Assembly (NCBI GenBank): GCA_030692355.1
Contig: JAUYCF010000042.1
Location: 122,413-186,412 of the forward strand
DNA length: 64,000 nt
From: Thiobacillus sp.
GTDB taxonomy: Bacteria > Pseudomonadota > Gammaproteobacteria > Burkholderiales > Thiobacillaceae
Direction of reading: 5' to 3'
Part shown: positions 37,292 to 62,023 of the stretch, in pieces
How positions within the stretch are numbered: position 1 is the first letter of the stretch
How the letters are laid out: every line of letters begins with the position of its first letter
The notes under the pieces: generated by a model
Told to the model about the DNA's origin: nothing
Database searches by the model: none
The model's input: only the letters and a program-made list of their open reading frames with translations
Program-made: the position numbers and the translations under genes

Positions 37292-37294
37292 GTT

Positions 37295-41536: not shown

Positions 41537-42601
41537 ATGGTGAAAACGAATCGATCTGAATGCGTGCGCGTATTGATGCTGGCCTGCCTGGGCGTCGCCT
41601 TGGCGGGTCTTGTTGGCTGCGCGTCGGAGCCGGTGAAGAAAAAGGACACCAGCGGCCTGGTGTGGCCGTCGCCGCCGGAGCTGCCGCGCATCAGCTATGT
41701 CGCCGAATACCATGGCCAGCGCGATCTGGGTGCAAAAGATAGCATGAAGGCGGCGCTGCTGGGCGAGGAGAAAGGCGGCCTGGCCCTGAAGAAACCCTAC
41801 GGCGTGACCGCTTCTGATGACGGCAAGCTGATCTATGTTACCGATACCATGCTGCGCGCCGTCGTGGTGTTCGACATCGAGAAGAAGGAAGTGCGCCCGC
41901 TCAAGACCGACGCGCAGGGGTGGATGTCCAACCCTTTGGAGGTCCGCCTCGACAGGCAGGGGCGGATTTTTGTCACCGATTCGGAGCGCAAGGAGCTGCT
42001 GGTGCTGAGCCCGGAAGGCAAGACGCTGATGGCGCTGGGCAAGAAGGAGGAAATCGGCCGCCCCACCGGCCTGGCCCTGGATGAGGCGCGCGGCCGGGTG
42101 TACGTGGCCGACACGGTCAATCACCGTATCGTGGTGTACGACCTGGAGGGCAGGCACCTGCTTACTTTTGGCGAGCGCGGCTCGGAGCCCGGGCAGTTGA
42201 ACTATCCGGTCAATCTGGCGGTGGACCGCGATGGCAAGCTGCTGGTGAGCGATACCGGCAATTTCCGCGTCCAGGTATTCGATGGCGAGGGGACGTTCCT
42301 TGACGCCTTCGGGCAGCTTGGCGATTCATACGGCAGCTTCAGTCGTTCTAAAGGTGTCGCGGTTGATTCCGATAACAATGTATATGTGATCGATGGGGCG
42401 TTCAACAATTTCCAGATTTTCAATCGCGACGGCAAGCTTTTGCTGTTTGTCGGGGCGATGGGGCGAGATCCGGGCATGTTCTGGCTGCCGACGGGGATTT
42501 TCGTTGACCGGGCGGACAGGATTTATGTGGCGGATTCGATCAATGCGCGAATCCAGGTTTTTCAGTACATCAAACAGGAAGGAGGTACCGCGGTGAAATG
42601 A
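41537..42601 (+). CDS. NHL-repeat beta-propeller lipoprotein
   Basis: A 354-residue lipoprotein (lipobox LAGLVGC, Cys28). After a proline-rich LVWPSPPELPRISYVAEY segment come about six NHL repeats (YVADTVNHRIVVYDLEGRHL, LLVSDTGNFRVQVFDGEGTF are typical), giving a beta-propeller. NHL propellers bind proteins or small ligands; no catalytic residues are evident. The ATG at 41537 has GGAG upstream; 38 earlier codons have no signal. It shares its N-terminal LVWPSPP pattern and its end (IYVADSxNxRxQxFQYI) with the propeller at 55.9 kb, so the two are paralogs in one system. Confidence 0.9.
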   Translation: MVKTNRSECVRVLMLACLGVALAGLVGCASEPVKKKDTSGLVWPSPPELPRISYVAEYHGQRDLGAKDSMKAALLGEEKGGLALKKPYGVTASDDGKLIYVTDTMLRAVVVFDIEKKEVRPLKTDAQGWMSNPLEVRLDRQGRIFVTDSERKELLVLSPEGKTLMALGKKEEIGRPTGLALDEARGRVYVADTVNHRIVVYDLEGRHLLTFGERGSEPGQLNYPVNLAVDRDGKLLVSDTGNFRVQVFDGEGTFLDAFGQLGDSYGSFSRSKGVAVDSDNNVYVIDGAFNNFQIFNRDGKLLLFVGAMGRDPGMFWLPTGIFVDRADRIYVADSINARIQVFQYIKQEGGTAVK

Positions 42602-42701
42602 AGGCATTTCCTCCGGGGCGGCCCGGTGGGTTGGATGGCAGGCGGCCGGGAAAGTGCCTGATCCAGAGCAGGTTTCAATTTTAAATCAAGGAGTCACTAT
42701 C

Positions 42702-43400
42702 ATGCATACGCAAATAAAATCAAGGGCCGCAGTGTCGGGCTTTCTTCTGGCGCTGCTGGTCACGTTTTCGGGCGGCGCGCTCGCCGCCGGCATCTTGGGC
42801 ACCAAGCATGACCTTTCCGTCACTGGCGGCGGCACGATCAAGTCCACCACCCAGACGGAAATCTGCATCTTCTGCCACACGCCCCACGACGCGTTCAAGA
42901 CCGACAACATCCCGCTGTGGAACCATGAGATGTCGCAGATTACTACCTATGGCATGTACACCAGCCCGACCCTCGACGCGACAGATCTGGCAGACGTCGG
43001 CGTGGATGATCCGGCACACTCCGCGGTGAGCAACCTGTGCCTGTCCTGTCATGACGGCACGGTGGCGGTCAATTCCTTCAACAACCCGTCCAATACATCG
43101 CCGAACACACCCATGGTTGGCGGGGTAGATAAGATCACCGGTTCGGCCAACCTGGGCGCGGCGGCGGATGCGCTGAAAAACGACCATCCGGTCAACTTTA
43201 CCTATAACCCTGGGACTGGTGCCGGGCTGGATAGCACCCTGGTGCCTACGGCAAGCCTGACGGGGGTCAAGCTCTACAACAACAAGGTGCAGTGCGCTTC
43301 CTGCCACGACCCGCATACCTCTGTGGATCCGACCGGAAAGGCGTTCCTGCGCGTTTCGATGAGTGGCAGCACCTTGTGCTTCGCCTGCCATAACAAGTAA
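42702..43400 (+). CDS. Tetraheme periplasmic cytochrome c
   Basis: A 232-residue exported protein (signal peptide 1-29, ending GGALAAG). It has four CXXCH sites: CIFCHTPHD, CLSCHDGTV, CASCHDPHT and the terminal CFACHNK. The start of the mature protein, ILGTKHDLSVTGGG, is shared with the 11-heme protein at 57.1 kb and the 5-heme protein at 62.5 kb, so these form one family of doubled-CXXCH proteins. A good AAGGAG lies before the ATG. The role is inferred to be periplasmic electron transfer. Confidence 0.92.
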   Translation: MHTQIKSRAAVSGFLLALLVTFSGGALAAGILGTKHDLSVTGGGTIKSTTQTEICIFCHTPHDAFKTDNIPLWNHEMSQITTYGMYTSPTLDATDLADVGVDDPAHSAVSNLCLSCHDGTVAVNSFNNPSNTSPNTPMVGGVDKITGSANLGAAADALKNDHPVNFTYNPGTGAGLDSTLVPTASLTGVKLYNNKVQCASCHDPHTSVDPTGKAFLRVSMSGSTLCFACHNK

Positions 43401-43408
43401 CGCTTCGT

Positions 43409-45241
43409 GTGGCCAAGAGGGATGATCGACGCGGCTCCGTGAGGGCCGGGGGTGCGCTCGCCGCGCTTCTGGCTCTTCTCCCCGCCCCGGCCATGGCGCT
43501 GAAGATGCCCGAACTGGGCGGCGCGGGGAAGATCACCTCCCTCCATGGCTCGATCGGGCTGGAGGCCGAGGATTACCAGTACGACACGGACTACACAAGC
43601 AGCGACCGCACACGCTTTCGTACGCGCTTCGACCTCAATGGCCGCGGCTTTATCTGGGATCCCCGCTTTGCGGTGTTCGACGCGGGGGTGACCCTGCAAA
43701 GGGAAAACGTGCAGAGTGTCGATGATGATATCAGCGGGGAAACCAGCAACAACATGCTCGGCTACCGCCTCAGCACCACCTGGCTTGCCAACAGGCCCTA
43801 TCCGCTGACGCTCTTTGCCAACCGCAGCCAGAGCACCGTCTCCGACTTCTGGAGTCCGTCCTACGAGCTCACCACGAGCAATATGGGCGCGCGCTGGGGG
43901 CTGGAAAACAAGTGGCTGGGGCGCGCCAGCTTCCATGCCGACCGCACCAGTTCGGAGTCCGGCAGCGCGCTGGTGCCGCGCTCGGACCAGGGCTTTTCGT
44001 TCGGCATGGACGCGAGCCGGAAGCTGCGGCCCAAGCAATGGGGGGAGTCCAGCCTGTCCTACGGCTACCGGCACACGGCATGGGACGACGAGGCGTACGG
44101 CGGCAGCCAGCGCCAGGACTATTTTTATGTCAACGACCGTTCGCTCTTTGGCGAAAAGGCGAACCTGACGGCCAATCTGACCTATTACGACCGCAGCGAC
44201 CAGTGGGGATACGCGGGTTTTGGCACCAATACGATGGAGTCGGAATTTCTCGGCTTCAACAGCATGCTCAACGTGCAGCAAACCGAAAACCTGCGCCACT
44301 TTTACAGCCTGGGCCTGGGCATGACTGAAACGGGAAGCAGCCAGAGCGTGTCGCACAGCCTGTCGGCCGGGGCGACTTACCGCATCAACAAACAATGGCA
44401 GGCGACCGGGATGCTGGGCCTGGGCGGCGCAAGCTCGGAGTCGTCCGCCGGTCCGGGCGGCGCCAGCCAGAGCGCGGAAAGCACCTCGCTCTCCGGCAGC
44501 GCGGCTGTCATGTACTCCGACACGCTGGGGAATTACCTGGTGAATGGCGGCTACAGCCTGGCGCTGACGCAGGCGAACCCATCCGCTACGTCGTCCGTGC
44601 CGGCGCAGCAGAGCACCACCCACAGCGCCAATCTCGGCTACACCCGCATGAATTCGCCGCGCTATGCCGACTCGCTGCAGCTGCGCGTGAGCCAGACCGC
44701 GGGCGAGCCGAGCGGCAGCGAACTCAATGTGCGCTACAGCGTGACCAGCAGGCTGGCCCAAAGCGACATGCTGCAGGCAACCGCCGAATACCGCCGCTAC
44801 CAGCAGACGTACGCGGTGTGGAGCGCCTCGGCGCTTGAGCCGGACGATTATGACTACTATGACCTGGATTCGCAGAGCACGCGCCTCGATTTCGGCTGGC
44901 TGCACCGTTTTTCCCAGGCCGGCAACGTCATGCTGTCGGCGGGCGCGACCAGCGAAACCAACCAGGGCATTGCCCGCGACATGCGCTACGCGCAGGTGCG
45001 CGCCAGCATGAGTCTGCGTGGCGCGCTGCAATGGACGGCGCTGGCGCGCGCGGAGCAGATCGATGGAGAGGCTTATCTTGCGGGGCGGAAAGTGACGTTC
45101 GAATCGGACCTGAACTATCGCGTCGGAAAATGGCAGGCGACCGCGCGTTATCGCTATCGGGATGCCCAGCAGGAATCCGCGCCGTTCCAGGAAAGCACGA
45201 TAACGGTATTGCTGAAACGGGATTATGGCCTCCGTTTCTGA
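43409..45241 (+). CDS. Outer-membrane beta-barrel protein (porin of the cytochrome conduit)
   Basis: A 610-residue protein with a signal peptide (to about residue 30, PAPAMALK) and a long run of amphipathic strands alternating with short turns, ending in GLRF with a terminal Phe, the outer-membrane insertion signal. I count well over 20 likely strands, in line with a large MtrB/PioB-type barrel that encloses a cytochrome. No conserved CXXC of MtrB is obvious. The gene begins with GTG 8 bp after the tetraheme gene and overlaps the propeller gene by 17 bp. Whether it hosts a cytochrome is inference from the neighbours. Confidence 0.85.
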   Translation: MAKRDDRRGSVRAGGALAALLALLPAPAMALKMPELGGAGKITSLHGSIGLEAEDYQYDTDYTSSDRTRFRTRFDLNGRGFIWDPRFAVFDAGVTLQRENVQSVDDDISGETSNNMLGYRLSTTWLANRPYPLTLFANRSQSTVSDFWSPSYELTTSNMGARWGLENKWLGRASFHADRTSSESGSALVPRSDQGFSFGMDASRKLRPKQWGESSLSYGYRHTAWDDEAYGGSQRQDYFYVNDRSLFGEKANLTANLTYYDRSDQWGYAGFGTNTMESEFLGFNSMLNVQQTENLRHFYSLGLGMTETGSSQSVSHSLSAGATYRINKQWQATGMLGLGGASSESSAGPGGASQSAESTSLSGSAAVMYSDTLGNYLVNGGYSLALTQANPSATSSVPAQQSTTHSANLGYTRMNSPRYADSLQLRVSQTAGEPSGSELNVRYSVTSRLAQSDMLQATAEYRRYQQTYAVWSASALEPDDYDYYDLDSQSTRLDFGWLHRFSQAGNVMLSAGATSETNQGIARDMRYAQVRASMSLRGALQWTALARAEQIDGEAYLAGRKVTFESDLNYRVGKWQATARYRYRDAQQESAPFQESTITVLLKRDYGLRF

Positions 45242-46340
45242 CGGCTGCCGCCTGGCGCTGGCTTTTGCGCTTGCCGCCTGGCAGTTGCCCGTGCCGGCGG
45301 CGGACTGGCCGATGCTCGGCGGCGGGCCGGAGCGCCTGCACCAGAGTTCCGATGCGCTGTCCGCCAGGGCGCCGGCGCGGCAGTGGGAGAGTTCGACAGG
45401 CGGCAAGGTGCACGCCGGCCCGGTCGCCGGGGACGGCATGGTGTTCATTGCCGGCAACGACCGGCGCTTGAGCGCGCTGGATGCGAAAAAGGGCGGCGTC
45501 TTGTGGCGCTTCGAGGCGGGCGGGCCGATTTCCGCCGAGCCGGTGCTGGCGGATGGCCTGGTCATTGTCGCCGCCAAGGATGGGGGGGTGACGGCGCTGG
45601 CCGCCTTCGACGGCAAGCGCCGCTGGCAGGTCAAGCTCGGAGGCGGGGTCGTGGCGTCGCCGGTCGTGCGCGACGGCAGGGTGTACGTGGGCAGCGTGGA
45701 TCAGTTCCTTTATGCCCTGGATGCGCGGACCGGCAAGGAAATCTGGCGCTACCGGGCGAAGGATTACAAATACGGCGGGATTTATGCCGCGCCGGCGGCG
45801 GATGCGGCGCGGGTGTATGTCGGCGCCAAGAATGGCTGGCTGCACGCGGTCCTGCGTGCTGACGGCAAGCCCGCCTGGCAGACCGAGCTGGGTTCGGCGC
45901 TCTACGGCGCGCCGGCGCTGGCGGGGGGGCGGGTGTATCAGGGCTCGTATGACCGCAATGTTTATGCGCTGGAGGCGGAGAGCGGAAAAATTCTCTGGCG
46001 CGCGGAATTGGATGACTGGCCGCAGGGAACACCGGTGCCGGTCGGTGACATGGTGTATGTATGCAGCCGCAGCGGAGTGCTGTACGCCCTGAGTGCGGCG
46101 GATGGCCGGATCATGTGGCAGATGTCGCTGGACGGCGAGGTGCGGCACTCGCCCAGCGTCGCCCGTAATCACTTCGGCGTGGTGGCGACCCTGGATGGAC
46201 GCTTGGTGGGCATAAACCTGGAGCGGCGGCGGATTGTCTGGGAGCAGAAACTGGGGGGCGGGGCCTACGGCGGCCCGGCAATCAGCGATGGCGGCGTGCT
46301 GGTCGTGACCCAGGAGGGTGTGGTGAGTGTGTGGCGCTAG
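45225..46340 (+). CDS. PQQ-like beta-propeller protein (BamB-like), exported
   Basis: A 371-residue exported protein with repeats of the PQQ/BamB type (GGVLWRFEAGGPISAEPVLA, GKEIWRYRAKDYKYGG, GKPAWQTELGSALYGAPALA), about seven blades. BamB-like propellers act as scaffolds at the outer membrane; enzyme-type PQQ ligands are not evident. A signal peptide ends about residue 26 (LPVPAADW). The start overlaps the barrel gene by 17 bp, so the barrel and propeller are made together, and the propeller may help to assemble the conduit. Confidence 0.88.
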   Translation: MASVSDGCRLALAFALAAWQLPVPAADWPMLGGGPERLHQSSDALSARAPARQWESSTGGKVHAGPVAGDGMVFIAGNDRRLSALDAKKGGVLWRFEAGGPISAEPVLADGLVIVAAKDGGVTALAAFDGKRRWQVKLGGGVVASPVVRDGRVYVGSVDQFLYALDARTGKEIWRYRAKDYKYGGIYAAPAADAARVYVGAKNGWLHAVLRADGKPAWQTELGSALYGAPALAGGRVYQGSYDRNVYALEAESGKILWRAELDDWPQGTPVPVGDMVYVCSRSGVLYALSAADGRIMWQMSLDGEVRHSPSVARNHFGVVATLDGRLVGINLERRRIVWEQKLGGGAYGGPAISDGGVLVVTQEGVVSVWR

Positions 46341-46368
46341 CAGGCAGGGAATCAGCCCGGCGAACGAA

Positions 46369-47640
46369 ATGAAACACCCCCCCCGTAGGTCGGGCTTCAG
46401 CCCGACAGAGCTGGCCGAAGCCAGGCCTGCGGCGGCTGGCGGGTTTCTGGCGGGGCTTTTCGGGCTGAAGCCCGACCTACGGGGGTTGATGGGTTTGTGG
46501 CGGGGGCTTTTCGGGCTGAAGCCCGACCTACGGGGGAAGCATGAAACGCCACCTCGTAGGTCGGGCTTCAGCCCGACAGAACTGGCTGAAGCCCGGCATG
46601 CGGCGGTTTTTGGTTTGGTGGACGTACGCTGGTGGGTGTGGTGCTTGCTGATGCTGCTTTCTTGCGCCTTGCATGCCGCGCCGGCAGGAAACGTGAAGAT
46701 GGAAAATGTGTGGGATGAAATCAGCCTGTTTAAACATGTGGACGAGATCCCCCAACTGCTGCGGCAGGGCAAGATCAATGCGGAACAGATACCCGACCCG
46801 CATTGGCGCGAGGACGGGGACGGCTGCCGCGCCTGCCATCGCGGAACGCCAGGGGAAAAGGATGCGAAGCTGCTTACCGGGGACATCAACGGGCTGTGCA
46901 ACAACTGTCACGACACGGTTTCGGTGCACAACTATATCCACGCCGTGGGCATGGAGCCTTCCGCCGAAAAGCGCGAGCGGATGCCCGAGAGTTTCCGCCA
47001 GGCGGTCAAGCGCGGGGGGGGCGTGGTGACCTGTATTGCTTGCCATGATTTGCCGATGCAGTGCAAAAAGGAGCGTTTTGCCGAAAAAAAACTCAATCAG
47101 AGGTTTTTTCGTGGCGGGCCATACCAGGCGCGCACCGACCTGTGCTTCAATTGCCACAACCCGACGCACTACGAGCGACTCAATCCGCATGACCAGATCA
47201 GCGATGAGGGCGAACTGAACACCCAGCGCTGCCTGGTTTGCCACAGCGTGACGCCCAACCGGCGCGACGCGAAAAGCATTGACGATGTGAGTTTTAACGT
47301 GACGGACGACCTGACCAAATTGTGCACCGGTTGCCATCCGTGGCGGCCCCACCCCGGCGGAGCCTGGGCCATGTTCGCGCCGGGCTCGGGTGGTGAAGGG
47401 CCGAACCATCTGGTCAAGCCGCCGGAGGCGATCCGGCAACGCCTCAAGGAATCCGAAGCGAAGTGGGATATTGTGCTGCCGCTGGAACCCTCGACCGGGC
47501 GGATATTTTGCGCGACCTGCCACAATCCGCATGAGCGGGGGGTGCAGCGCCATGCACGGGCAGACCGGGGCGCGGATGGGTACAAGCGGTTGCGTAATAC
47601 AGGGGGGGTGTCGATTTGCAACCATTGTCACAATAAATAG
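46369..47640 (+). CDS. Octaheme cytochrome c
   Basis: The protein has eight CXXCH motifs: CRACH, CNNCH, CIACH, CFNCH, CLVCH, CTGCH, CATCH and CNHCH. A signal peptide (WWVWCLLMLLSCALHAAPAG) begins near 46630. The start is uncertain: the frame is open back to a GTG at 46327, with an ATG at 46369 used here, but its first 80 codons translate REP palindromes. A GTG at 46618, next to the signal peptide, is a strong alternative and gives about 340 residues. No good ribosome binding site marks either. The protein would be a soluble periplasmic or outer-membrane electron carrier. Confidence 0.88.
   Translation: MKHPPRRSGFSPTELAEARPAAAGGFLAGLFGLKPDLRGLMGLWRGLFGLKPDLRGKHETPPRRSGFSPTELAEARHAAVFGLVDVRWWVWCLLMLLSCALHAAPAGNVKMENVWDEISLFKHVDEIPQLLRQGKINAEQIPDPHWREDGDGCRACHRGTPGEKDAKLLTGDINGLCNNCHDTVSVHNYIHAVGMEPSAEKRERMPESFRQAVKRGGGVVTCIACHDLPMQCKKERFAEKKLNQRFFRGGPYQARTDLCFNCHNPTHYERLNPHDQISDEGELNTQRCLVCHSVTPNRRDAKSIDDVSFNVTDDLTKLCTGCHPWRPHPGGAWAMFAPGSGGEGPNHLVKPPEAIRQRLKESEAKWDIVLPLEPSTGRIFCATCHNPHERGVQRHARADRGADGYKRLRNTGGVSICNHCHNK
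46385..46577. repeat. REP palindrome cluster, four copies
   Basis: GGTCGGGCTTCAGCCCGAC-type palindromes at 46385 and 46556 in one orientation and at 46461 and 46512 in the other. They lie directly after the propeller gene and within the open 5' part of the octaheme frame. Confidence 0.9.
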
Positions 47641-47781
47641 ACGGGTTGGCGCCCGACCTGCGGATTGCGTTGTTTTCACGCGTTGTTTTCACCGTTACGG
47701 CTTTGCCGGCCGGGGTTCATCCCGGCATCGGGGTGAAGCGAAGCCGGACCGGATTTACGGAAATAGAAAAAGGAAAAGAGG

Positions 47782-48894
47782 ATGGAGATGTTGATCAGAT
47801 GGTGCGTTGCGGGCATTTTGTCCCTGTTGCTTGGGTATGCCGCGCCGGCTTTGGCTTTCGAGGATGACGAAGCCTGCCTGATGTGCCATAAATACCCGAA
47901 AATGGGGCGTATTACCGAAGAGGGTCAGCAAAAGTCCTATTACGTGATGCCGCATGTTTTTTCCAAGACCGTGCACCGCAACGTGCCCTGTCGCGATTGC
48001 CACGGCTATATCAAGGAATTGCCGCACAAGCCCGTCACCGAGGGGGTGACGTGCGACACGGAATGCCACTCGATCCAGAATCCTTCGACCGGCAAGCCGT
48101 TCAGCCATAAGCCGATTTATGACGCGTTCAAGAAGAGCGTCCATGGCCGGGAAAAGATCGCCGAGGGCAATGACGCCGACAAGCCCTATTGCGTCAACTG
48201 CCACACCAACCCGCTCTATAACGCCAAGGAGGAAAAGCCGCCCAAGCATATCGTGGACCGTTGCGTGGTCTGCCACGAGGACGCCAAGTTTGCGGAGAAA
48301 TGGTACAACCACACTAGCCGCCGCATCCGCGAGGTCAAGCGTTCACCCCAGGAAATCGTCGAGATGTGCTCCTCTTGCCACGCCGACAAGGAGATGCTGG
48401 GGCGTCACCAGGCGGCTGCCAAGGAAGAAGGGCGCGAGTTGGGGCGGAAATTCATGATCGCGGCGGAATCCTACAACGAAAGCTTTCACGGCAAGCTGTC
48501 CAAGTACGGCAGCGACAATGCGGCCAACTGCCTTGATTGCCATGCCAATACCGTGAACTACTACCTCAGCGTGCACGAACTGCTGCCTTCGCGCGATCCG
48601 CGTTCGCCGGTGAGCGCGGAAAACAGGGTGCAGACCTGCAAGCAGTGCCATGTGAGGGCGGACGAGAACTACGCCAAGCTGGACCCTCATCCCTCCAGCA
48701 AGAAGGAGGACAACGTCTTCAAGTATTACGCCGAGATAACTTACACGGTTGTGGGGAATGTCGTACTGGCGATGCTGGTTGGACTCGCCGCATTCGAAAC
48801 CTGGGGCCGCTTGCGCGATGGCGTGAGCTGGCGCTTCCGTGATGGCTCATCGTGGTGGCGGCGTACCAGGCGCGATAGCAATCGCATTCCCTGA
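47782..48894 (+). CDS. Membrane-anchored multiheme cytochrome c, seven CXXCH plus one CX3CH
   Basis: A 370-residue exported protein (signal peptide to about 25, APALAFED) with CLMCH (32-36), CRDCH (70-74), CDTECH (91-96), CVNCH (137-141), CVVCH (161-165), CSSCH (196-200), CLDCH (250-254) and CKQCH (286-290). The third site has three residues between the cysteines. A C-terminal helix at about 320-340 anchors it to the inner membrane. It resembles NrfH/NapC-linked or cytochrome c3-type proteins that take electrons from a membrane partner; the cytochrome b encoded next is the likely partner. The ATG follows AAAAGAGG closely. Confidence 0.9.
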   Translation: MEMLIRWCVAGILSLLLGYAAPALAFEDDEACLMCHKYPKMGRITEEGQQKSYYVMPHVFSKTVHRNVPCRDCHGYIKELPHKPVTEGVTCDTECHSIQNPSTGKPFSHKPIYDAFKKSVHGREKIAEGNDADKPYCVNCHTNPLYNAKEEKPPKHIVDRCVVCHEDAKFAEKWYNHTSRRIREVKRSPQEIVEMCSSCHADKEMLGRHQAAAKEEGRELGRKFMIAAESYNESFHGKLSKYGSDNAANCLDCHANTVNYYLSVHELLPSRDPRSPVSAENRVQTCKQCHVRADENYAKLDPHPSSKKEDNVFKYYAEITYTVVGNVVLAMLVGLAAFETWGRLRDGVSWRFRDGSSWWRRTRRDSNRIP

Positions 48895-48911
48895 TGAAAG
48901 CCATGGGGCCT

Positions 48912-49008
48912 GTCGGGCTGAAGCCCGACCTACGAATTAGCGCCATCTCGAAACCCGTTTCGCAGGTCGGACTTCAGTCCGAAATATCGGGCTGAAGCCG
49001 GCCTGCAG
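48912..49008. repeat. REP palindrome cluster
   Basis: One canonical reverse copy at 48912-48933 and a degenerate facing pair (GGTCGGACTTCAGTCCGA and GGGCTGAAGCCGGCC) at 48962-49008, between the multiheme gene and the cytochrome b gene. Confidence 0.85.
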
Positions 49009-49066
49009 GCTGTTAAACAGATGGTGCAGAATTTTTTACGAGTTGACGCATAAGGACACGCTGAAT

Positions 49067-49984: not shown

Positions 49985-50002
49985 GGTGATGTGCTGCTCA
50001 AT

Positions 50003-50049
50003 GTAGGTCGGGTTTCAACCCGACATCATCGGGCTGAAGCCCGACCTAC
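50003..50049. repeat. Facing pair of REP palindromes
   Basis: A forward copy with T/A changes in the stem (GTCGGGTTTCAACCCGAC, 50003-50024) and a canonical reverse copy at 50030-50049, separated by 5 bp, in the gap between cytochrome b and the 38-residue gene. The compensated stem changes keep the fold. Confidence 0.85.
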
Positions 50050-50077
50050 AAAAAATTAAGGCTGGACAAATATTTCT

Positions 50078-50194
50078 ATGAGATCCGAGCTTAAAACCTG
50101 GCAGAAACTGCTCGCCTACGGCTCACTGGCTTTTGTGCTGGCGTGGACCGTCTTCGGGCTATACGCGATCTGGCTGATGTTAGCGCAGGGCTGA
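50078..50194 (+). CDS. Small single-helix membrane protein, 38 residues
   Basis: The ATG at 50078 opens a frame encoding 38 residues: a polar start (MRSELKTWQKLLAYGS) and one membrane helix (LAFVLAWTVFGLYAIWLML) ending in AQG. It lies between the cytochrome b and the triheme gene with short gaps (21 bp to the next ATG). The size and place recall small subunits of membrane respiratory complexes, so I suggest it stabilises the cytochrome b / cytochrome c interface. This is inference from size and place; no family is recognised. Its stop is TGA at 50192. Confidence 0.6.
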   Translation: MRSELKTWQKLLAYGSLAFVLAWTVFGLYAIWLMLAQG

Positions 50195-50215
50195 TGATAA
50201 ATTTAAGGATTGACC

Positions 50216-51307: not shown

Positions 51308-51308
51308 C

Positions 51309-52232: not shown

Positions 52233-52237
52233 GCGGA

Positions 52238-55200
52238 ATGCCCGAGTGTTTGGCCATCCATGCAGGCCGGGCTTCAGCCCGACTCATAATCGTAGGCCGG
52301 GCTTCAGCCCGACTCAGGGCCATCTGCAGGCAGGGCTTCAGCCCGGAGTTTCGGGCTGAAGCCCGACCTACGGGTTTGAGTCAGGCTGAAGCCCGGCCTG
52401 CGATTGCGGCATGGCTCCTGGCGTGGCTGCTGCTGTTCCTCGGCCTTCTTTTCCTGCCGCGCGCCGCCGAGGCGGCGCGGGATATTTCGCCGCAGCGCGA
52501 ATGCGCGACCTGCCACGTCATGTGGTTGGTGGATTTCAACCGCGAGGACGTGACGCCATTGATTCCCTACAACCCCAAGCCGACGGTGGCGACCGGCAAA
52601 CAGGACGTGGCGAGCACCGACCGCATGTGCTTTTCCTGTCATGACGGTTTTGTGCTGGACTCCCGCTTTGCATGGAAAAACCGCCAGAATTTCCACCCCA
52701 TCGGCGTCAAGCCGTCGGAGAAGGTGAATATCCCGACGGTCGAAGGCAAGCTGATGTTCCCGCTCAACGACGATGGCAAGGTCTATTGCGGTACCTGTCA
52801 CAGCGCCCACGGTGTGGAGTGGGGAGAAAAACTGTCCCCGGTGTTTTTGCGCATGAAAAACGTCGATTCAAGCCTGTGCATGGGCTGCCACCTGGAGCGT
52901 GGCACCGGCCCGGACGAGGGCAACCATCCGATATTCAGGAAATTGAAGGAAATCCCGCATGCGCTGACGGAAGCCGGCTCCAAATTCGGCAGCGGCAATA
53001 ACGTGATCTGCCAGTCCTGTCACCGCGTTCACGGCGCGCCCGAGAAGAAGCTGCTGGCGGTGAAGAACCCAAATTCCGAACTGTGCGGCATCTGCCATGC
53101 CGACCGCTATGCCCACACCCCGGCCGAGGCGGGGAAAATGGGCACCCATCCGGTGAATATCCGGCCCGACCGGGTGAAGATTCCGCAGGCCCTGTTCGAC
53201 CGGGGCGCCAAGCTGGGCGAGGGCGGCACCGTGATCTGCCAGACCTGCCACAAGCCGCACTTCGCCGAGGAGGGCGCCAGGATTCTGGTCGCGCCCAACG
53301 CGCGGTCGCAGCTTTGCCAGACCTGTCATGTCGAGCAGCGCCGGGTGGCGAGCAGCAAGCACAACATGGCGCTGGTCAACGAGGCGGACAAAAATGTACG
53401 CGGCCAGGAAGTAGGCCGGGCCGGGGTGTGCAGTGCCTGCCATCTGCCGCATGGCGGGCAGGGGCCGAAAATGTGGGCGCGTGTGGTGAAGAGCGGCGAC
53501 GACCCGGTGGCCGACCTGTGCCTGACCTGCCACAGCGAGGGCGGGCTGGCCAAGGACAAGCAGGTGGGTCAGCACACCCACCCGGTAGGGCGCGACATGG
53601 CCCGCCTGGGCGGGGCGGTGGAACTTCCGGGCTACAGCAGGGAAGGCGTCAAGTCGACGGGCGACGGCAAGGGGCGGGTCAGTTGCCCCAGTTGCCACGA
53701 CCCGCACCAGTGGGATCCGCTCGACCCGGAAAAAACCTCGAAACCGGGCGACGAAAGCAGCGGCAGCAACAAGTTCCTGCGCAAGCCCAATGGCCCGGAG
53801 GCCGGCCTGTGCCTGACCTGCCACAAGAACAAGGCCGGCATTGCCAACACCAAGCACGATCTGGCCGTCATGGCGCCGACAGAACGCAATATCCGCGGCC
53901 AGACGCCCGCGGAAACGGGCGTCTGCGCCAGTTGTCACCTGCCCCACAACGGCCGTGGCGTGCGCATGTGGGCGCGCGAGCCGCTGGCCGGGGTGGACCC
54001 GGTTTCCTCCATCTGCCTGAGCTGCCACAATTCCCAGGGCGTGGCAAAGGATAAAATCATCGGCGCCAACAGCCATCCGCTGGATGTGCCCATCGCCAAT
54101 ATCGGCATCACGGCGAAGGACGGGCAATGGTCGGCGCCGCCGCAAAGCGTTGCCCAGCCGGGCAAGGCGCTGCCGCTCTATGACCATCGCGGCGCGCCGG
54201 CCGCGGAAGGCGGCAACGTGGTGTGCGGCACCTGCCACGATCCGCACAACTGGTCGCCTTTGACCAGGGCCAGCCCCGCCGGGGATCCGCGCAAGACAAA
54301 GGGCACGGGAGACACCAGTTTCCTGCGCCTGCCGAACGACAACAAGGGCACGCTGTGCGCCAACTGCCATGTGGATAAGGGCCCGATTGCCCTGTCCAAG
54401 CACAATCTCGCCATTTCCGCGCCCGCGGCGAAGAACACCCAGGGACGCACTACCGCCGAAACCGGCGTGTGCGGCTCCTGCCACCTGCCGCACAATGGCA
54501 ACGGCGCGAAGATGTGGGCGCGCGCCACCGGGCCGGGACAGGACGGCGTCGAAGTGCTGTGTGCCGAATGCCACCGCGACGGTGGCGTGGCGGAGAAGAA
54601 GCAGACTGGCGCCAACAGCCATCCGCTGCGCGTGGACCTGAAGAATGTCGGCGGCAAGACCACCCTGCCGCTTTACACCGCCGACGGCAAGAAGGATCAC
54701 GTCAAAGGCAAGGTCGCCTGCGCCACCTGCCACAACCTGCACCAGTGGGACCCGGCGGACGCCGCCAGCAAGGCCGGGGCGAAGGCCGACGTGGAGGGCG
54801 GCGCAGCCAACAGTTTCCTGCGCCAGCCCGCCTGGCCGGCGCCGACGCTCTGCGCCAACTGCCACCAGAACAAGCAGCAGGTGAAGAACACCGACCATGA
54901 CCTGGCCGTCACCGCACCGCAGGCGACCAATGTGCGCGGCCAGAATGCGCAGGAGTCCGGCGTGTGCGGACAGTGCCACATGGTGCATAACGCCGAGGCC
55001 AAGGCGCGCCTGTGGGCGCGGCCGCCGGGAGAGGGCAATGATGCCATGGAGCGCCTGTGCCGTTCCTGTCATGCCGCCGGCAAGGTGGCCGCCGCCAAGT
55101 TGCCGCTCAAGGGCAGCCACCCGGCCAGGGTCAACGTGATCTCCAACCCCGGCAGCCAGCGTGAAAACGGCGGGCATTTCCCCGTTTTCACCCCCGATGG

Positions 55201-55438
55201 GGAACGCAGCGGCTCCGGCATCATCACATGTCCAACTTGCCACAATGCCCACCAGTGGAGCCCGTTCAAGGCCGAGGAAGGCGAAGGCCGCAACGTCGAG
55301 GGCGATGCGCGCAGCAGCTTCCTGAGAAATACCAGCGATTTCTCGCTGTGCGCCGATTGTCACGGCCTGGATGCGCTGTTCCGCTACAAGTATTTTCATG
55401 GCGAGACATCGCGCAAGAAACATATGCTTTACCGATGA
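52238..55438 (+). CDS. Giant 24-heme cytochrome c
   Basis: I count 24 CXXCH motifs in about 1,000 mature residues. The first eight are in an N-terminal region; the last sixteen fall into four repeating modules of four hemes, each opening GVCxxCHLPHNG (at about 53.43, 53.91, 54.46 and 54.96 kb), with MWAR and SHP landmarks. Each module is about 160-185 residues. There is no distal membrane anchor beyond a signal peptide (LLLFLGLLFLPRAAEAARD). The start is uncertain: the codons 52238-52375 translate REP repeats, and a TTG at 52376 next to the signal peptide is the alternative. A long periplasm-spanning or cell-surface electron wire is the likely role. Confidence 0.92.
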   Translation: MPECLAIHAGRASARLIIVGRASARLRAICRQGFSPEFRAEARPTGLSQAEARPAIAAWLLAWLLLFLGLLFLPRAAEAARDISPQRECATCHVMWLVDFNREDVTPLIPYNPKPTVATGKQDVASTDRMCFSCHDGFVLDSRFAWKNRQNFHPIGVKPSEKVNIPTVEGKLMFPLNDDGKVYCGTCHSAHGVEWGEKLSPVFLRMKNVDSSLCMGCHLERGTGPDEGNHPIFRKLKEIPHALTEAGSKFGSGNNVICQSCHRVHGAPEKKLLAVKNPNSELCGICHADRYAHTPAEAGKMGTHPVNIRPDRVKIPQALFDRGAKLGEGGTVICQTCHKPHFAEEGARILVAPNARSQLCQTCHVEQRRVASSKHNMALVNEADKNVRGQEVGRAGVCSACHLPHGGQGPKMWARVVKSGDDPVADLCLTCHSEGGLAKDKQVGQHTHPVGRDMARLGGAVELPGYSREGVKSTGDGKGRVSCPSCHDPHQWDPLDPEKTSKPGDESSGSNKFLRKPNGPEAGLCLTCHKNKAGIANTKHDLAVMAPTERNIRGQTPAETGVCASCHLPHNGRGVRMWAREPLAGVDPVSSICLSCHNSQGVAKDKIIGANSHPLDVPIANIGITAKDGQWSAPPQSVAQPGKALPLYDHRGAPAAEGGNVVCGTCHDPHNWSPLTRASPAGDPRKTKGTGDTSFLRLPNDNKGTLCANCHVDKGPIALSKHNLAISAPAAKNTQGRTTAETGVCGSCHLPHNGNGAKMWARATGPGQDGVEVLCAECHRDGGVAEKKQTGANSHPLRVDLKNVGGKTTLPLYTADGKKDHVKGKVACATCHNLHQWDPADAASKAGAKADVEGGAANSFLRQPAWPAPTLCANCHQNKQQVKNTDHDLAVTAPQATNVRGQNAQESGVCGQCHMVHNAEAKARLWARPPGEGNDAMERLCRSCHAAGKVAAAKLPLKGSHPARVNVISNPGSQRENGGHFPVFTPDGERSGSGIITCPTCHNAHQWSPFKAEEGEGRNVEGDARSSFLRNTSDFSLCADCHGLDALFRYKYFHGETSRKKHMLYR
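52262..52402. repeat. REP palindrome cluster, five half/complete copies
   Basis: Forward copies at about 52262, 52291 and 52327, and reverse copies at about 52352 and 52383, some with GC-changed stems (GGCCGGGCTTCAGCCCG). They lie between the NHL gene and the signal peptide of the 24-heme gene and keep the frame open. Confidence 0.85.
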
Positions 55439-55483
55439 GATTAAAATTATTGATGAGGTTAAAATTTGCAGGTCGTCATGGAT

Positions 55484-55822
55484 GTCGGGCTGAAGCCGGA
55501 CCTGCGCTCCGGAGTGTTGCCGTTGCAGCCGGGCTTCAGCCCGAAAGCGATAAGGCGAAAAATCACCCGTAGGTCGGGCTTCAGCCCGAAAGCGGCGATG
55601 CAAAGAATCACCCGTAGGTCGGGCTTCAGCCCGAAAGCGGCGATGCAAAGAATCACCCGTAGGTCGGGCTTCAGCCCGAAAGCGACGATGCAAAGAATCA
55701 CCCGTAGGTCGGGCTTCAGCCCGAAAGCGGCGATGCAAAGAATCACCCGTAGGTCGGGCTTCAGCCCGAAAGCGGCGATGCGAAGAATCACCCGTAGGTC
55801 GGGCTTCAGCCCGACAGCGGCG
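55484..55822. repeat. REP tandem array, 45-bp period, six regular copies
   Basis: GGTCGGGCTTCAGCCCGA-type palindromes occur at 55566, 55611, 55656, 55701, 55746 and 55791, exactly 45 bp apart, with the linker GGCGATGCAAAGAATCACC almost invariant. Two degenerate copies precede them. This fills the 450-bp gap between the 24-heme gene and the NHL gene. Because 45 is a multiple of three, a frame stays open across the array. Confidence 0.92.
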
Positions 55823-55888
55823 ATGCAAAGAAATACCGCGCATGCCGGGATTCCTCCCGTCAAACCCGCACAAGCGTTGTGGAGAACA

Positions 55889-56962
55889 ATGGTGCAACAA
55901 GCCGTAAAACCGATTCTGTCCCTCACCATCGCCCTGCTGCTGGCGGCCCCCCACGCCTGGGCGGAGGAGGCCCCGCCCGTCAAGGCCGCACAGGCAAAGG
56001 CGCAGGCGACGCCTGACCTGGTCTGGCCGTCGCCGCCTCTGCCGCCCCGCATCCGCTATCTCGGCTCGGTTTCCAGCCCGGAGGACATCGGGCGCAAAAA
56101 GGGGTTTTTCCGCAAGGCATGGGAATTCATCCGCGGCGAGCAAGACGATGAACAGATCGCGCGCCCCATGGCCGTGGCGCTGGACGGTCGGGACCGGCTG
56201 CTGGTGGCGGACACCAAACGGGGGAGGGTGCATATTTTCGACCGCCGCAAGGGCGAATATTCGTCCCTGCGCGGCAGCAAGTGGGAAACCCTGCGCCTGC
56301 CCATCGGCCTGGCGGTGGACGGCAAGGATAATATCTATGTTGCCGACGGCGAGCTGAACAGGATTTTCATATTCAGGCCGGATGGCAAGTTCGATCGCAT
56401 GCTCGATACCGCCGCCTGGCTCAAGCGCCCCTCCGCGCTGGCGATCGACCGTGCGCGGCAGCGCCTGTACGTGGCGGACACGCCGGCCCACGACATCAAG
56501 GTGGTCGATCTGCCGACCGGCAAGGTGCATAGCGTGATTGGCCGCCGGGGCGAGGCGCACGGGGAATTCAATTTCCCCACGTTCATCGCGCTGGATCGCC
56601 AGGGACATCTGGCGGTCACCGACAGCATGAACATGCGCATCCAGATATTCGATGCCGCGGGACAGCTGGTTTCCTCCTTCGGAAAACACGGCGACGGCTC
56701 CGGCGATTTTTCCGCCCCCAAGGGCGTGGCGCTGGACAGCGAGGGACATGTGTACGTCGCCGACGCGGGATTCGACAATATCCAGGTGTTTGACGAAGCC
56801 GGGGAGCTGCTGCTGCTCTGGGGAACATCGGGCCAGGAAGCCGGAAAGTTCTGGCTGCCGGCCGGCCTGCTGATCGACGCCCAGGACCGGATTTATGTCG
56901 CGGACTCGTACAATAAGCGGGTGCAGATATTCCAGTACATCGGAGGCCGGAATGCGAAGTAG
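55889..56962 (+). CDS. NHL-repeat beta-propeller protein, exported
   Basis: A 357-residue exported protein with a signal peptide (about 1-26, LLAAPHAWAEE) and then LVWPSPPLPPRIRYLGSVSS, the segment shared with the lipoprotein at 41.5 kb. About six NHL repeats follow, ending IYVADSYNKRVQIFQYIGG. The ATG at 55889 has GGAG at 55881, which settles the start even though the frame is open upstream through the REP array to 55466. The paralogy with the 41.5-kb protein, at the two ends of the block, supports one functional unit. Confidence 0.9.
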   Translation: MVQQAVKPILSLTIALLLAAPHAWAEEAPPVKAAQAKAQATPDLVWPSPPLPPRIRYLGSVSSPEDIGRKKGFFRKAWEFIRGEQDDEQIARPMAVALDGRDRLLVADTKRGRVHIFDRRKGEYSSLRGSKWETLRLPIGLAVDGKDNIYVADGELNRIFIFRPDGKFDRMLDTAAWLKRPSALAIDRARQRLYVADTPAHDIKVVDLPTGKVHSVIGRRGEAHGEFNFPTFIALDRQGHLAVTDSMNMRIQIFDAAGQLVSSFGKHGDGSGDFSAPKGVALDSEGHVYVADAGFDNIQVFDEAGELLLLWGTSGQEAGKFWLPAGLLIDAQDRIYVADSYNKRVQIFQYIGGRNAK

Positions 56963-57002
56963 GCCTGATTTCATTGCCCGGCCCGTGGAACCCTGCCCCT
57001 GC

Positions 57003-57100
57003 GCAGTAGGTCGGGCTTCAGCCCGAAATGTCGGGCTGAAGCCCGACCTGCAGCGAATTTGTTATGTTAAATGTCGGGCTGAAGCCCGACCTACTGCGAA
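57003..57100. repeat. REP palindrome cluster
   Basis: One forward copy at 57006 and two reverse copies at about 57030 and 57072, the latter two separated by a duplicated GCGAATTTGT-ATGTTA segment. It sits just before the 11-heme gene. Confidence 0.88.
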
Positions 57101-57133
57101 TTTGTCATGTTATTTGAGTGGAGTTTTTCCGCC

Positions 57134-59116
57134 ATGAAAACGCGCAACTATGCATGGTTCACCGCCGTTCTGCTGATTGCGGGCCTGCTCGGCTGGACCG
57201 CGCCCGGCATGGCGAGCATCGTCAACACCAAGCACAATCTTTCCGCGACCGGCCCCGGCACCCACAAGGCGACCAGCGAGACCCAGTTGTGCGTGTTCTG
57301 CCACACTCCGCACAACACCAACCCCGCCGCGCCGCTGTGGAACCATGCGCTTTCGGCGGCGACGTACACGCCCTATGGCAGCAACACCCTGGCGGCGGCC
57401 GCGCCGGGGCAGCCGAGCGGCACGTCGAAACTGTGCCTGTCCTGCCACGACGGCACGGTGGCGCTGGGCGGGGTACAGAACCTGCCCTTCGGCCACCAGA
57501 CGGCGGGAACGGTTTCCGGGCTGGAAGCCTTCCTGACCGGGGCGACCAGCCTGGGCACCGACTTGCGCAACGACCACCCGGTTTCCTTCACCTACGACGC
57601 CGCGCTGGCGGCCGCCAATCCCGAGCTGGTGGCGCCCGCCTCGCTCACCGGCAAGATCAAGCCCGACAGCACCGGGCAGCTGCAATGCGCCAGCTGCCAC
57701 GACCCGCACAGCGAAACCAACCCCAAATTCCTCCATGTCGGCTATCAGGACGGTGCGGGCTACGGCTCGCCGCTGTGCCGCACCTGCCACAACAAGATGT
57801 ACTGGGACACGGTGCCCAACAACCCGCATCGCGAATCCACCATTCAATGGAACGGAGCGGGAGTCAACCCCTGGTACATTCCGGGGCAGAACCTGCCGAA
57901 CGACCCCAACTCGACGCTCAAGGCCAATGGCTGCGAAAACTGCCACCAACCGCATAATTCGGACTCGACCAAGCAGCTTCTGAAATCGGGCGGCGAATCG
58001 CAAATCTGCCTGGTCTGCCACAACGGCAACGTTGTGGTCGACCCGGCCAAGAATATCGATGCCGCGCTCAACCGTTTATATGCCCATCCGATCAAGGCGC
58101 CCGGCAATGCAGGCAGGCACAATCCCAGGCGCATGCCGGATGGCAAGATCCGGGAGGATCAGGTTGACCTCAATAACCGCCATGCGGAGTGCGAGGATTG
58201 CCACAATGCGCATGCGGTATCGGCCGGCACGTCGCCGAACCCGCCTCTCTCCACCAGCAACCTGACGCCCCCGGTGAACAAGGGTGTGTGGGGCGTTGAG
58301 CCGGTCTGGCCGGGCAACTGGGCTAACGTCACCACCTACTCCACCGTGCAGGACACCACATTCCAGCATCAGATTTGCCTGAAGTGCCATTCCTATTACG
58401 CCTTCGGCCTGACGCCGCCGCCCGACCCCTACGGCATCATCGCCGGCGGCATCAATACCGACCAGGCAAAGGAATTCAACCCCAATAACGCCTCCTTCCA
58501 TCCCGTCGTGGCGCCGGGCAAGAACGACTTCAAGATGACGGTAGATGGCGTGACCTACGATTATTCCGCCTCCCTGATCAACGGCTTCACGCCCACCAGC
58601 GTCATGACCTGTACGGAATGCCACTCCGACTCCCTTTCCGGGGCAGGCGCCGGACCGAAAGGTCCTCACGGCAGCGATGTCTGGCCGATCCTGTGGGCGC
58701 CCTATGACGGGTCTACCGGTATCAACGGTACCGAGGACCATTTGTGTTTCAAATGCCATAAAGCGTCGGTCTATGGCGGTCCGGGAGGGTCGGCAGGCAC
58801 CTGGCAGTCAACCGGGTTTAGCGGCACTGCTGGTGGTGGACAGAAGAGAAACCTGCATTATCGCCACATCGAGCTGCGCCAGATGCCCTGCCAGGCGTGC
58901 CATTCCGCCGTGCCGCATGGCTGGAAGCGGCGCGCCATGCTGATCTACGGCACCGGCACCCCCGACCCGGCACCCTATAACAGCCACAGCAAATACCTTA
59001 TCAATGGCAGCAGTGTGTACGGGATCCCTTCCGCGCGCGATGTCGATGCCGTGGCGAGCGGGACCTGGACAAGACCCATGTGCCATGGGACTGGAAGCGG
59101 TGTAGGCTCCTGCTAG
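57134..59116 (+). CDS. Undecaheme cytochrome c
   Basis: A 660-residue exported protein (signal peptide about 1-28, WTAPGMASIV). It has eleven CXXCH sites: CVFCH, CLSCH, CASCH, CRTCH, CENCH, CLVCH, CEDCH, CLKCH, CTECH, CFKCH and CQACH. The mature start SIVNTKHNLSATGPG matches the tetraheme protein at 42.7 kb, so its first 230 residues look like that protein plus an extension. A lone MCHGTGSG near the end is not a heme site. The ATG at 57134 has GGAG upstream. It may be the outer-surface or periplasmic partner of the 24-heme protein. Confidence 0.92.
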   Translation: MKTRNYAWFTAVLLIAGLLGWTAPGMASIVNTKHNLSATGPGTHKATSETQLCVFCHTPHNTNPAAPLWNHALSAATYTPYGSNTLAAAAPGQPSGTSKLCLSCHDGTVALGGVQNLPFGHQTAGTVSGLEAFLTGATSLGTDLRNDHPVSFTYDAALAAANPELVAPASLTGKIKPDSTGQLQCASCHDPHSETNPKFLHVGYQDGAGYGSPLCRTCHNKMYWDTVPNNPHRESTIQWNGAGVNPWYIPGQNLPNDPNSTLKANGCENCHQPHNSDSTKQLLKSGGESQICLVCHNGNVVVDPAKNIDAALNRLYAHPIKAPGNAGRHNPRRMPDGKIREDQVDLNNRHAECEDCHNAHAVSAGTSPNPPLSTSNLTPPVNKGVWGVEPVWPGNWANVTTYSTVQDTTFQHQICLKCHSYYAFGLTPPPDPYGIIAGGINTDQAKEFNPNNASFHPVVAPGKNDFKMTVDGVTYDYSASLINGFTPTSVMTCTECHSDSLSGAGAGPKGPHGSDVWPILWAPYDGSTGINGTEDHLCFKCHKASVYGGPGGSAGTWQSTGFSGTAGGGQKRNLHYRHIELRQMPCQACHSAVPHGWKRRAMLIYGTGTPDPAPYNSHSKYLINGSSVYGIPSARDVDAVASGTWTRPMCHGTGSGVGSC

Positions 59117-59131
59117 CGCAATGAAAACGGG

Positions 59132-60391
59132 ATGTTTTTTCTGAGAAGCCGTTTTTTCAGGCTGCTGGCTTCGCCCGGCCTGGCGCTGGCCCTGCTGGGG
59201 CTGATGCTCCTGGCGGTGCTGATGGGCGGCACCCTGCCGCAGACCGTGCGGCTGTCCCCACAGGAACTGGATGCCTGGCACCGGGCCTGGCCGCTGCTTT
59301 CCCTGTGGCTGGAACGCCTCGGCCTGGCGGACGTGTATGCCTCAACGGGATTTCAATTTCTCTACGTGGCGCTGATCGTGAATCTGACGGCAGGCACGGC
59401 GGCCCATGTGGCATATCTTTTTGCCTGGTTCAGAGGGGAAACGCCTGGCCGTTCCCTGCACCTTTCCGAGCTGCCTCCCGCCCTGCTGTCCTTGGCGGAT
59501 GCCGGCCCCAGCGGACACCGTCGCGGCAGTTTGGGCCTGGCCGGCCTGCCGCTGCTCCATGCCGGCATCGTGGTAATCATCGTGGCTGCGCTGGTGAACG
59601 GTTCGGACAGGCTGGGCGCCCATTTCGAACTGGCCGAGGGAGAGGTGCTCAGCCAGGCGAATGGCAAACTGCGCCTGGAGCGGGGTTCGCGCCAGATTGA
59701 GGGGGAACTGGATTTCCGTCTGCGCCTCGATGCCTTGCTGGTGGAAATGGAGGGCGGGAGCGTTCGTGAATTGCAGGCGCGGGTATCGTTGCAGCAGGCG
59801 GGCGGGGCCCTGCGCCAGGAAACCCTGGCGGTGAATCATCCGCTCAGGATTGGTTCCTCCCAGGTTTATCTGGACAAAAACGTGGGCCAGGCGGGCGTGT
59901 TCGAGCGCATCCTGCCGGACGGGCAGCGTCGCCGCCTGCTGGTCAATTTCATTCAGCCGCGTGAAGACTGGGGCAGCAACTGGCCCCTGACACGCGACGA
60001 GACGATGGTATTCGAGGATATCCCGGTGAACTTTCGCATGGCACTGACCCCCGGCGATGCGCCGAGCTTTCGCCTCACGGCGGAGCGCCGAGGTAAACCG
60101 GTGTTCGACGGCGTGCTGGCGCCGGGTGAGGTGGCTGACCTGGGCGTGTATCAGCTGAAATTCATCGGCACGGCACCCTGGGCGGGCCTCTACCTCGCCT
60201 CCGGCCAGGCCTTGAAATGGATATTCTCCGGTTTTGTCCTCGCCCTGGCGGGATTTGCCTTGCATCTCCTGCTTCATCCGCGCCGCCAGCGCCTGCGGCG
60301 CGAAGGTGACGGGTGGCTGCTCGAAGCCTGGACCCTGCGCGACGACTGGCGCTTTGAACGGCAGTGGCGCGAGTGGGAGCGCGGACGATGA
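59132..60391 (+). CDS. resB: ResB-like cytochrome c biogenesis protein (system II)
   Basis: A 419-residue membrane protein with four helices (near 13-35, 72-95, 145-165 and 360-380) and a large periplasmic loop between the third and fourth. ResB/CcsB and ResC/CcsA form the heme exporter and ligase of system II cytochrome c maturation. It begins 16 bp after the 11-heme gene and overlaps resC by 4 bp. Its place in the cytochrome block suggests that it serves this block in particular, perhaps because of the high heme load. Confidence 0.9.
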   Translation: MFFLRSRFFRLLASPGLALALLGLMLLAVLMGGTLPQTVRLSPQELDAWHRAWPLLSLWLERLGLADVYASTGFQFLYVALIVNLTAGTAAHVAYLFAWFRGETPGRSLHLSELPPALLSLADAGPSGHRRGSLGLAGLPLLHAGIVVIIVAALVNGSDRLGAHFELAEGEVLSQANGKLRLERGSRQIEGELDFRLRLDALLVEMEGGSVRELQARVSLQQAGGALRQETLAVNHPLRIGSSQVYLDKNVGQAGVFERILPDGQRRRLLVNFIQPREDWGSNWPLTRDETMVFEDIPVNFRMALTPGDAPSFRLTAERRGKPVFDGVLAPGEVADLGVYQLKFIGTAPWAGLYLASGQALKWIFSGFVLALAGFALHLLLHPRRQRLRREGDGWLLEAWTLRDDWRFERQWREWERGR

Positions 60392-61164
60392 CCGCCGTCG
60401 TGCTTGTTCAGGGCGGCATCGCGGCCCTGTATCTGGCAGCGGTCATCCTGCTCTGGTCCAGGCAAGACCGTTTGGCGCGTCCGGCAATCGCGCTGGCAGC
60501 GCTGGGCTTTGCCATCCACTTCGGCCTGCTGGCCTGGCGCTGGCACGACATCGGGCAGATTCCCATCGTCACCCGTTACGAGGACTTGACGGTGGATTCC
60601 CTGATGATCGTGGGCATTTATCTGGCCGTGCAGTGGCGCCTGCCGGAATTGCGCCAGGCAGGGCTGCTGGCGCTGAGCATGGCCGGGCTGGGCTTGACAT
60701 GGGCGCTGTTCCATAACCGCGACGTCTTTCCCATGGGACCCGCGCTGCGCACCAACTGGCTGATTATCCATGCTCAGCTGAACTCCCTCGCCATCGGCGC
60801 AGGCACGCTGGCGGCAGGCGTGCACCTCGCCTGGCTCGCGGGCCGGATCGACAACCCCGATACGCCGGCACTGGCGGGCAGGCTGGCTGCCTGGGCTTTC
60901 CTTCTCTGGGCGGCGATGGTGGCGGCGGGGTCTTACTGGGCAAGTCTGGCCTGGGGCCGTTACTGGGGCTGGGACCCGATCGAGAGTTGGTCGTTCGCCA
61001 CGCTCATGGCCTACGCCTTTGTTCTTCACCTGCGCCAGAGACCGGCCTGGCGGGGAAAACGCTGGGCGGAGGTCGCGCTTTTTCCCTATGCCATGATGCT
61101 GTTCACCACCTATGGTTTGCTGCTGGTGAGGCGCAGCATTCACGGGCAGTATCTGTTTCAGTAG
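60388..61164 (+). CDS. resC: ResC/CcsA-like cytochrome c biogenesis protein (system II)
   Basis: A 258-residue membrane protein with about eight helices. It holds the heme-handling WWD motif WGRYWGWDPIESWS and flanking His residues (for example FPMGPALRTNWLIIHAQLN and VLHLRQRP), which bind heme for ligation to apocytochromes. The ATG at 60388 overlaps the resB stop in an ATGA; eight upstream codons are not supported. It is the last gene of the + strand block and is followed by the 41-bp repeat array. Confidence 0.93.
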   Translation: MTAVVLVQGGIAALYLAAVILLWSRQDRLARPAIALAALGFAIHFGLLAWRWHDIGQIPIVTRYEDLTVDSLMIVGIYLAVQWRLPELRQAGLLALSMAGLGLTWALFHNRDVFPMGPALRTNWLIIHAQLNSLAIGAGTLAAGVHLAWLAGRIDNPDTPALAGRLAAWAFLLWAAMVAAGSYWASLAWGRYWGWDPIESWSFATLMAYAFVLHLRQRPAWRGKRWAEVALFPYAMMLFTTYGLLLVRRSIHGQYLFQ

Positions 61165-61179
61165 AGGCGTCTGGTAAAA

Positions 61180-61548: not shown

Positions 61549-61572
61549 GTAGGTCGGGCTTCAGCCCGACAA
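61549..61572. repeat. REP palindrome forming the end of the RAYT gene
   Basis: A forward copy, inverted relative to the preceding array. The TGA in its GGGCTGAAGCCC strand is the stop codon of the RAYT gene on the - strand (61561-61563). Confidence 0.85.
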
Positions 61573-62007: not shown

Positions 62008-62023
62008 GGCGGTGTGTTGGGGG

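Follow-up and report, generated by a model that had tools for sequence, protein, structure and literature searches.

A Uet-like cytochrome cluster of Thiobacillus sp. carries OmcE-type domains and is a candidate joint between nanowire and outer membrane

A 2025 review names as an open challenge how cytochrome nanowires are anchored in membranes and at which points electrons pass into and out of them (PMC12307469). We address here a gene block of Thiobacillus sp. at positions 41,537–61,164, plus strand, of a 64,000-nucleotide stretch of contig JAUYCF010000042.1 (the window), which comprises 14 genes, here called A to N in their order, and one 38-residue peptide. Our analysis suggests that the block encodes a Uet-like outer-membrane conduit, in which the cytochrome B would polymerise outside the cell and the cytochrome L would join the resulting filament to the barrel C, a reading to which we give a probability of about 0.5. 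It builds on what was observed, namely the genes with their heme motifs and homologies, histidines that are conserved, and a co-occurrence that recurs among genomes, and on a predicted barrel fold.

The central evidence is a homology that the preliminary description of this DNA had overlooked: sequence comparison places both B and the front part of L in the family of the OmcE nanowire. B (42,702–43,400), a four-heme cytochrome and likely filament subunit, matches OmcE of Geobacter sulfurreducens (7TFS) with an E-value of 9.4e-33 over residues 10–232 of 232 at 38% identity; the next structure is 9YUQ at 1.1e-24, and thereafter none scores better than 0.74. L (57,137–59,116), an 11-heme cytochrome and likely connector, combines an OmcE-type domain holding hemes 1–4 with a seven-heme extension. 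Its first ~210 residues find the same two structures (OmcE at 1.9e-31, 9YUQ at 1.1e-24, the next at 0.084), and a profile built from 87 L proteins matches OmcE at 3.9e-46. B is like OmcE over its full length, with four CXXCH motifs and four further histidines that fall at OmcE positions. Unlike in Geobacter, the OmcE-type domain of the window is also fused into L, and polymerisation of B is a prediction. Four CXXCH motifs and four further conserved histidines recur in every four-heme (31/31) and every 11-heme (33/33) protein of our pattern listing, and these histidines are likely the distal ligands, which would give bis-histidine ligation of four hemes. OmcE and OmcS each have one heme for which the adjacent subunit supplies a ligating histidine (PMC9473688, PMC12307469).

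In a tree of 67 OmcE-type domains, which keeps long branches (B of G269, O, 9YUQ, OmcE and others), the 33 fused domains of the 11-heme proteins form one clade (support 99/90), in which each of the three cluster types set out below is represented. The fusion of an OmcE-type domain to an MtrA-like wire apparently arose once. The window holds a further OmcE-like protein outside the block, O (62,470–63,183, minus strand; 7TFS at 3.1e-22), a five-heme paralog of B whose extra heme lies within an insertion. A Sulfurimicrobium metagenome-assembled genome (MAG) likewise has a five-heme relative of B outside its cluster (L169).

The partner of L would be C (43,409–45,241), for which AlphaFold2 predicts an outer-membrane β-barrel of 28 strands at a predicted local distance difference test (pLDDT) score of 84.9. 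Its best Foldseek match is MtrB (6r2q_B, E 4.8e-10), consistent with the large outer-membrane barrel fold of MtrB-type proteins, and the model of L best resembles MtrA by VIA among the 27 chains compared. The likeness to MtrCAB and MtoAB lies in these folds; in sequence, L scores 39.8 bits against TIGR03508 (the DmsE/MtrA family), far under the cut-off of 192.2, and no MtrA/MtoA homologue of the DmsE family over its cut-off was found in the host genome. PF00033 gave one match. The profile of C (A1) matched no solved structure by sequence. At its C-terminus, past the last heme motif, L has a Cys-His pair (649–650 of the 659-residue form) that almost never varies across an alignment of 87 proteins.

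The neighbours of B and L point to a known system. The undecaheme electron transfer (Uet) cluster of Candidatus (Ca.) Tenderia and some Gallionella has been described as a porin-multiheme complex in which UetA is an extracellular tetraheme cytochrome (PMC10734462). Matches to L occur in 54 of 369 genomes of the class and in 13 of 117 of the family, the window's own counted in both. We examined 20 class loci, chosen partly for visible L-type and B-type matches, so that the presence of both in 20/20 is a biased count. Twelve of them follow the Uet plan: a four-heme gene, a gene for ~330 amino acids, the barrel, two triheme genes, a gene for ~500 amino acids, a third triheme gene, two NHL genes and the 11-heme gene, then ResB/ResC. 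This order agrees with the published Uet description (PMC10734462) and is complete from the four-heme to the 11-heme gene in nine of the 12; two loci (L110, L118) have no ~330-amino-acid gene at the usual place, and L120 departs further. In two Uet-order loci scanned with Pfam, the ~330-amino-acid gene encodes a PPIC-type prolyl isomerase. The UetF position, in these two loci, has an At5g54830-like Pfam domain and no tetratricopeptide repeat, a mismatch with Ca. Tenderia, where the gene at this position is termed a tetratricopeptide protein (PMC5371394).

Comparison of the block with these Uet-order loci, on which, rather than on the named Ca. Tenderia sequences, our comparison rests, shows a shared core. 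L, with 11 CXXCH motifs, shares homology with the 11-heme protein encoded in the 12 loci and corresponds to the undecaheme UetJ, while B, with four, is homologous to their four-heme proteins and corresponds to the tetraheme UetA. C aligns by profile with their barrels, the counterparts of UetC, at a probability of 97.9 (E 5.9e-13, 363 columns, without an unrelated barrel as control); the NHL proteins UetH and UetI are matched by A, I and K, and ResB/ResC are common to both. By gene content, the block encodes a Uet-like relative of the known conduit, from which two canonical features are absent. No peptidylprolyl isomerase domain, as in UetB, was found by Pfam among the 14 cluster proteins. The periplasmic trihemes UetD, UetE and UetG are lacking as well: the only triheme of the window, H, has two N-terminal hydrophobic segments, and three Uet-locus trihemes matched no window protein at 1e-4. 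The ~500-amino-acid gene is also missing from the block, which adds to the Uet set D, the eight-heme E, the cytochrome b/multiheme module F-G-peptide-H, I and the 24-heme J.

These comparisons largely account for the composition of the block, which the preliminary description had considered unusual, and lead us to reject its view that the NHL content and in-cluster ResBC look distinctive. The core matches that of Uet, and almost all of the genes are found together, in other orders, elsewhere. All 12 Uet-type loci have two NHL genes, and 11 of them have a gene of ResC type behind the 11-heme gene (the stretch of L111 ends before that point). The Uet core itself was previously described by others. 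In our literature search, whose coverage is incomplete, no paper connected Uet with OmcE, and such a connection may already have been published; the word OmcE is absent from the main text of PMC10734462 as available to us. PCC3, known from Sideroxydans and others and likened here by description, also combines a porin with multiheme cytochromes of very large size, and its inner-membrane protein has paired histidines (PMC5566968), whereas B and L of the window fall in the OmcE and Uet families. In three genomes, a 19–21-heme cytochrome gene stands beside B and A in divergent orientation (L057 17365–19001, L060 526–2250, L062 3572–5248), possibly a PCC3-like candidate.

Besides the Uet plan, a second cluster type has the order B-A-C-K-L-E-F-G-H-I-J, in G405 and G432, and in G436 with one inverted FGH paralog inserted; in G610, where the stretch read ends at A, this order is seen from A through J, and there J has 18 hemes and FGH is of the divergent kind. 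In the window these genes stand in yet another order, the third, with D and M-N in addition. Profile comparison aligns the three sets of barrels at probabilities of 99.1, 97.9 and 96.2, again without an unrelated-barrel control. Of 46 genomes with an L-type frame among the matches listed, 35 have a B-type frame no more than 15 kb away on that strand, a rough figure that omits G000, C-terminal fragments and lower-scoring rows. J (E ≤ 1e-60) is found in 10 of the 369 class genomes including the window's, and the other nine all match L (hypergeometric P 1.4e-8, kinship between genomes ignored). With an MtrB-like fold predicted for C, and barrel and cytochromes co-occurring in many genomes, the porin-cytochrome conduit of the preliminary description is supported. 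Our gene-order lists omit overlapping frames, and a single absence, such as that of K in L117, may be an artefact.

Within the family, all 14 genes stand in the window's order in three other genomes, G261, G292 and G294. The Sulfurimicrobium MAG has the same 14 genes plus two paralogous FGH modules, which separate E from F; one of the two is inverted, and I along with it. A–E, F–H and J–N are 58–87% identical to those of the window, and I 54%. A divergent paralogous F-G-H module (six-heme F, ~30% identity), sometimes inverted, was also seen near or in the clusters of L017, L018, L156, L157, L159 and L161. An apparent K-L fusion in G378, a 905-residue frame, was rejected as upstream read-through.

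All parts that the preliminary description had listed are present: beside the predicted barrel, Pfam confirms three NHL propellers, a PQQ/BamB-like propeller, ResB and a CcsB/ResC-type protein. The NHL propellers are A (41,537–42,601; Pfam NHL, 120 bits), which has a lipobox, LVGC, by pattern, I (51,309–52,232; 119 bits) and K (55,466–56,962; 129 bits). D (45,225–46,340) is the PQQ/BamB-like propeller (PQQ_2, 209 bits). M (59,132–60,391; ResB, 100.7 bits) and N (60,364–61,164; Cytochrom_C_asm, 69.2 bits) are ResB-like and ResC/CcsB-like cytochrome c maturation proteins. E (46,612–47,640, start approximate) is an eight-heme cytochrome whose length, ~342 amino acids, was taken from relatives. 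F (47,782–48,894) is a multiheme cytochrome with a C-terminal hydrophobic segment at residues 317–341, and G (49,043–49,984) a b-type cytochrome of the Ni_hydr_CYTB/FDH-gamma kind (PF01292, 33.1 bits), with His 73, 115, 129, 233, 248, 253 and 279 conserved in 12/12 aligned sequences. Between G and H lies the hydrophobic 38-residue peptide (50,079–50,195), probably a genuine gene because a similar peptide is present between G and H in 10/10 loci examined, the window counted. The triheme H (50,210–51,307) has 491 homologues at E ≤ 0.001, and J (52,229–55,438) is the 24-heme cytochrome.

Altogether, six proteins carry 58 c-heme motifs (B 4, E 8, F 7 CXXCH and one CX3CH, H 3, J 24, L 11), and O carries five, in agreement with the about 58 sites, and five more in the paralog at 62.5 kb, counted earlier. 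Shuffled controls of the six proteins (500 shuffles each) had a mean of 0.002–0.122 CXXCH motifs and a maximum of two. The frames of E, J and K as called start too early, since repetitive extragenic palindromic (REP)-type repeat DNA is translated in frame at their 5' ends: the longer frame of E, from 46,327, begins inside REP DNA, the true start of J is probably near 52,450, and that of K, preceded by REP DNA, probably near 55,885 (a relative has 359 amino acids). A REP-like palindrome motif has 31 matches at 46,385–63,929 of the window, each of them inside the cytochrome block or shortly behind it, while positions 1–46,384 are free of the motif; downstream of the block, among these repeats, lies a Y1/RAYT-type transposase frame (61,561–62,100, minus strand). 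Upstream, a minus-strand cluster at 30,379–40,873 holds genes for ketosynthases, acyl carrier protein, LolA, acyltransferase and MMPL proteins by Pfam, with an ApeI-like dehydratase slightly under the Pfam cut-off. We presume this cluster to be aryl-polyene-like.

How might these parts work together? L would sit in C much as MtrA sits in MtrB, presenting its OmcE end to the B filament; it would keep one polymerisation face, the other being replaced by the covalent seven-heme extension. On the inner side, E and the 24-heme J may span the periplasm and so connect to the inner-membrane module F-G-peptide-H, in which the cytochrome b would exchange electrons with quinone. The propellers A, D, I and K may hold or assemble parts, and M-N would mature the cytochromes. 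The proposed chain would run from the quinone pool through G and the peptide, F and H, E and J, and L in C to the B filament, in either direction. The host genome carries dsrA over its cut-off, dsrE directly downstream and three RuBisCO large-subunit genes, suggesting a probable sulfur oxidiser that fixes carbon. Because of these genes, electron uptake is likelier: flow in this host would most likely be inward, with the quinone pool receiving electrons that come from a mineral, a partner cell or extracellular sulfur. The wire as such would be reversible. In Ca. Tenderia, three trihemes and an undecaheme gene are among the candidates for cathode uptake, and the trihemes are highly expressed (PMC5371394).

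Several observations weigh against the filament reading. By VIA, 15 rows, mostly smaller porins, score above MtrB for C, the set in which L resembled MtrA was small, Foldseek alone gave the L model no match at E ≤ 0.001, and the OmcE part of L is modelled at low confidence. Expression of the Ca. Tenderia undecaheme gene did not differ between two electrode potentials (PMC5371394), and the role of cytochrome filaments in Geobacter itself is disputed (PMC11077965). To these we add that filament, complex and interfaces are predictions from sequence and models. A plain porin-cytochrome conduit, with B as a monomeric surface cytochrome, L as a barrel or surface cytochrome and no filament, would accord with Uet as published (PMC10734462), and homology to OmcE alone is no proof of polymerisation. 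Yet B matches OmcE over its full length with all conserved histidines retained, and its partner L also bears an OmcE-type domain, which a monomer would not need; we consider such a conduit possible, though on the improbable side.

Two further alternatives concern what the machine does and whether it is one machine. MtrCAB works outward in Shewanella, and OmcE does so in Geobacter (PMC12307469 for Geobacter). As these are the closest solved relatives, the same machine might pass electrons from quinol to minerals or partner cells, a direction that seems doubtful to us given the dsrA, dsrE and RuBisCO genes of the host and the occurrence of Uet in a cathode-oxidising organism (PMC10734462, PMC5371394). 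The locus might also join two machines, an outer-membrane set (A, B, C, K, L) and a periplasmic and inner-membrane set (D, E, F, G, H, I, J). Two loci that also speak against our preferred reading fit this division: G145, with J-E-D-(HGF)x2-I, and the second locus of G522 (contig 73), with J-I-E-D, both without A, B, C, K and L in the stretch read. Uet-type loci, moreover, pair the outer set with soluble trihemes instead. However, G405, G432, G436 and G610 have both sets side by side in a different arrangement, and each of the nine other J-bearing genomes also matches L, which makes two separate machines quite unlikely.

If the filament reading of the block is true, it would tie the literature on electron uptake by Uet to that on OmcE filaments, and would place nanowires in a probable carbon-fixing sulfur oxidiser. 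A testable candidate for the anchor joint is the MtrA-like wire that bears a nanowire-type domain, which many genomes keep next to a barrel and a filament-type cytochrome. More tentatively, the Uet family as a whole may be a nanowire-anchoring machine spread through the Gammaproteobacteria (in the GTDB sense) for electron uptake, in which an OmcE-type filament (UetA/B) would dock on the OmcE domain of an MtrA-like UetJ/L within an MtrB-like barrel. If the whole family anchors nanowires in this way, it would both hold a cytochrome nanowire in the membrane and be the site at which electrons enter it.

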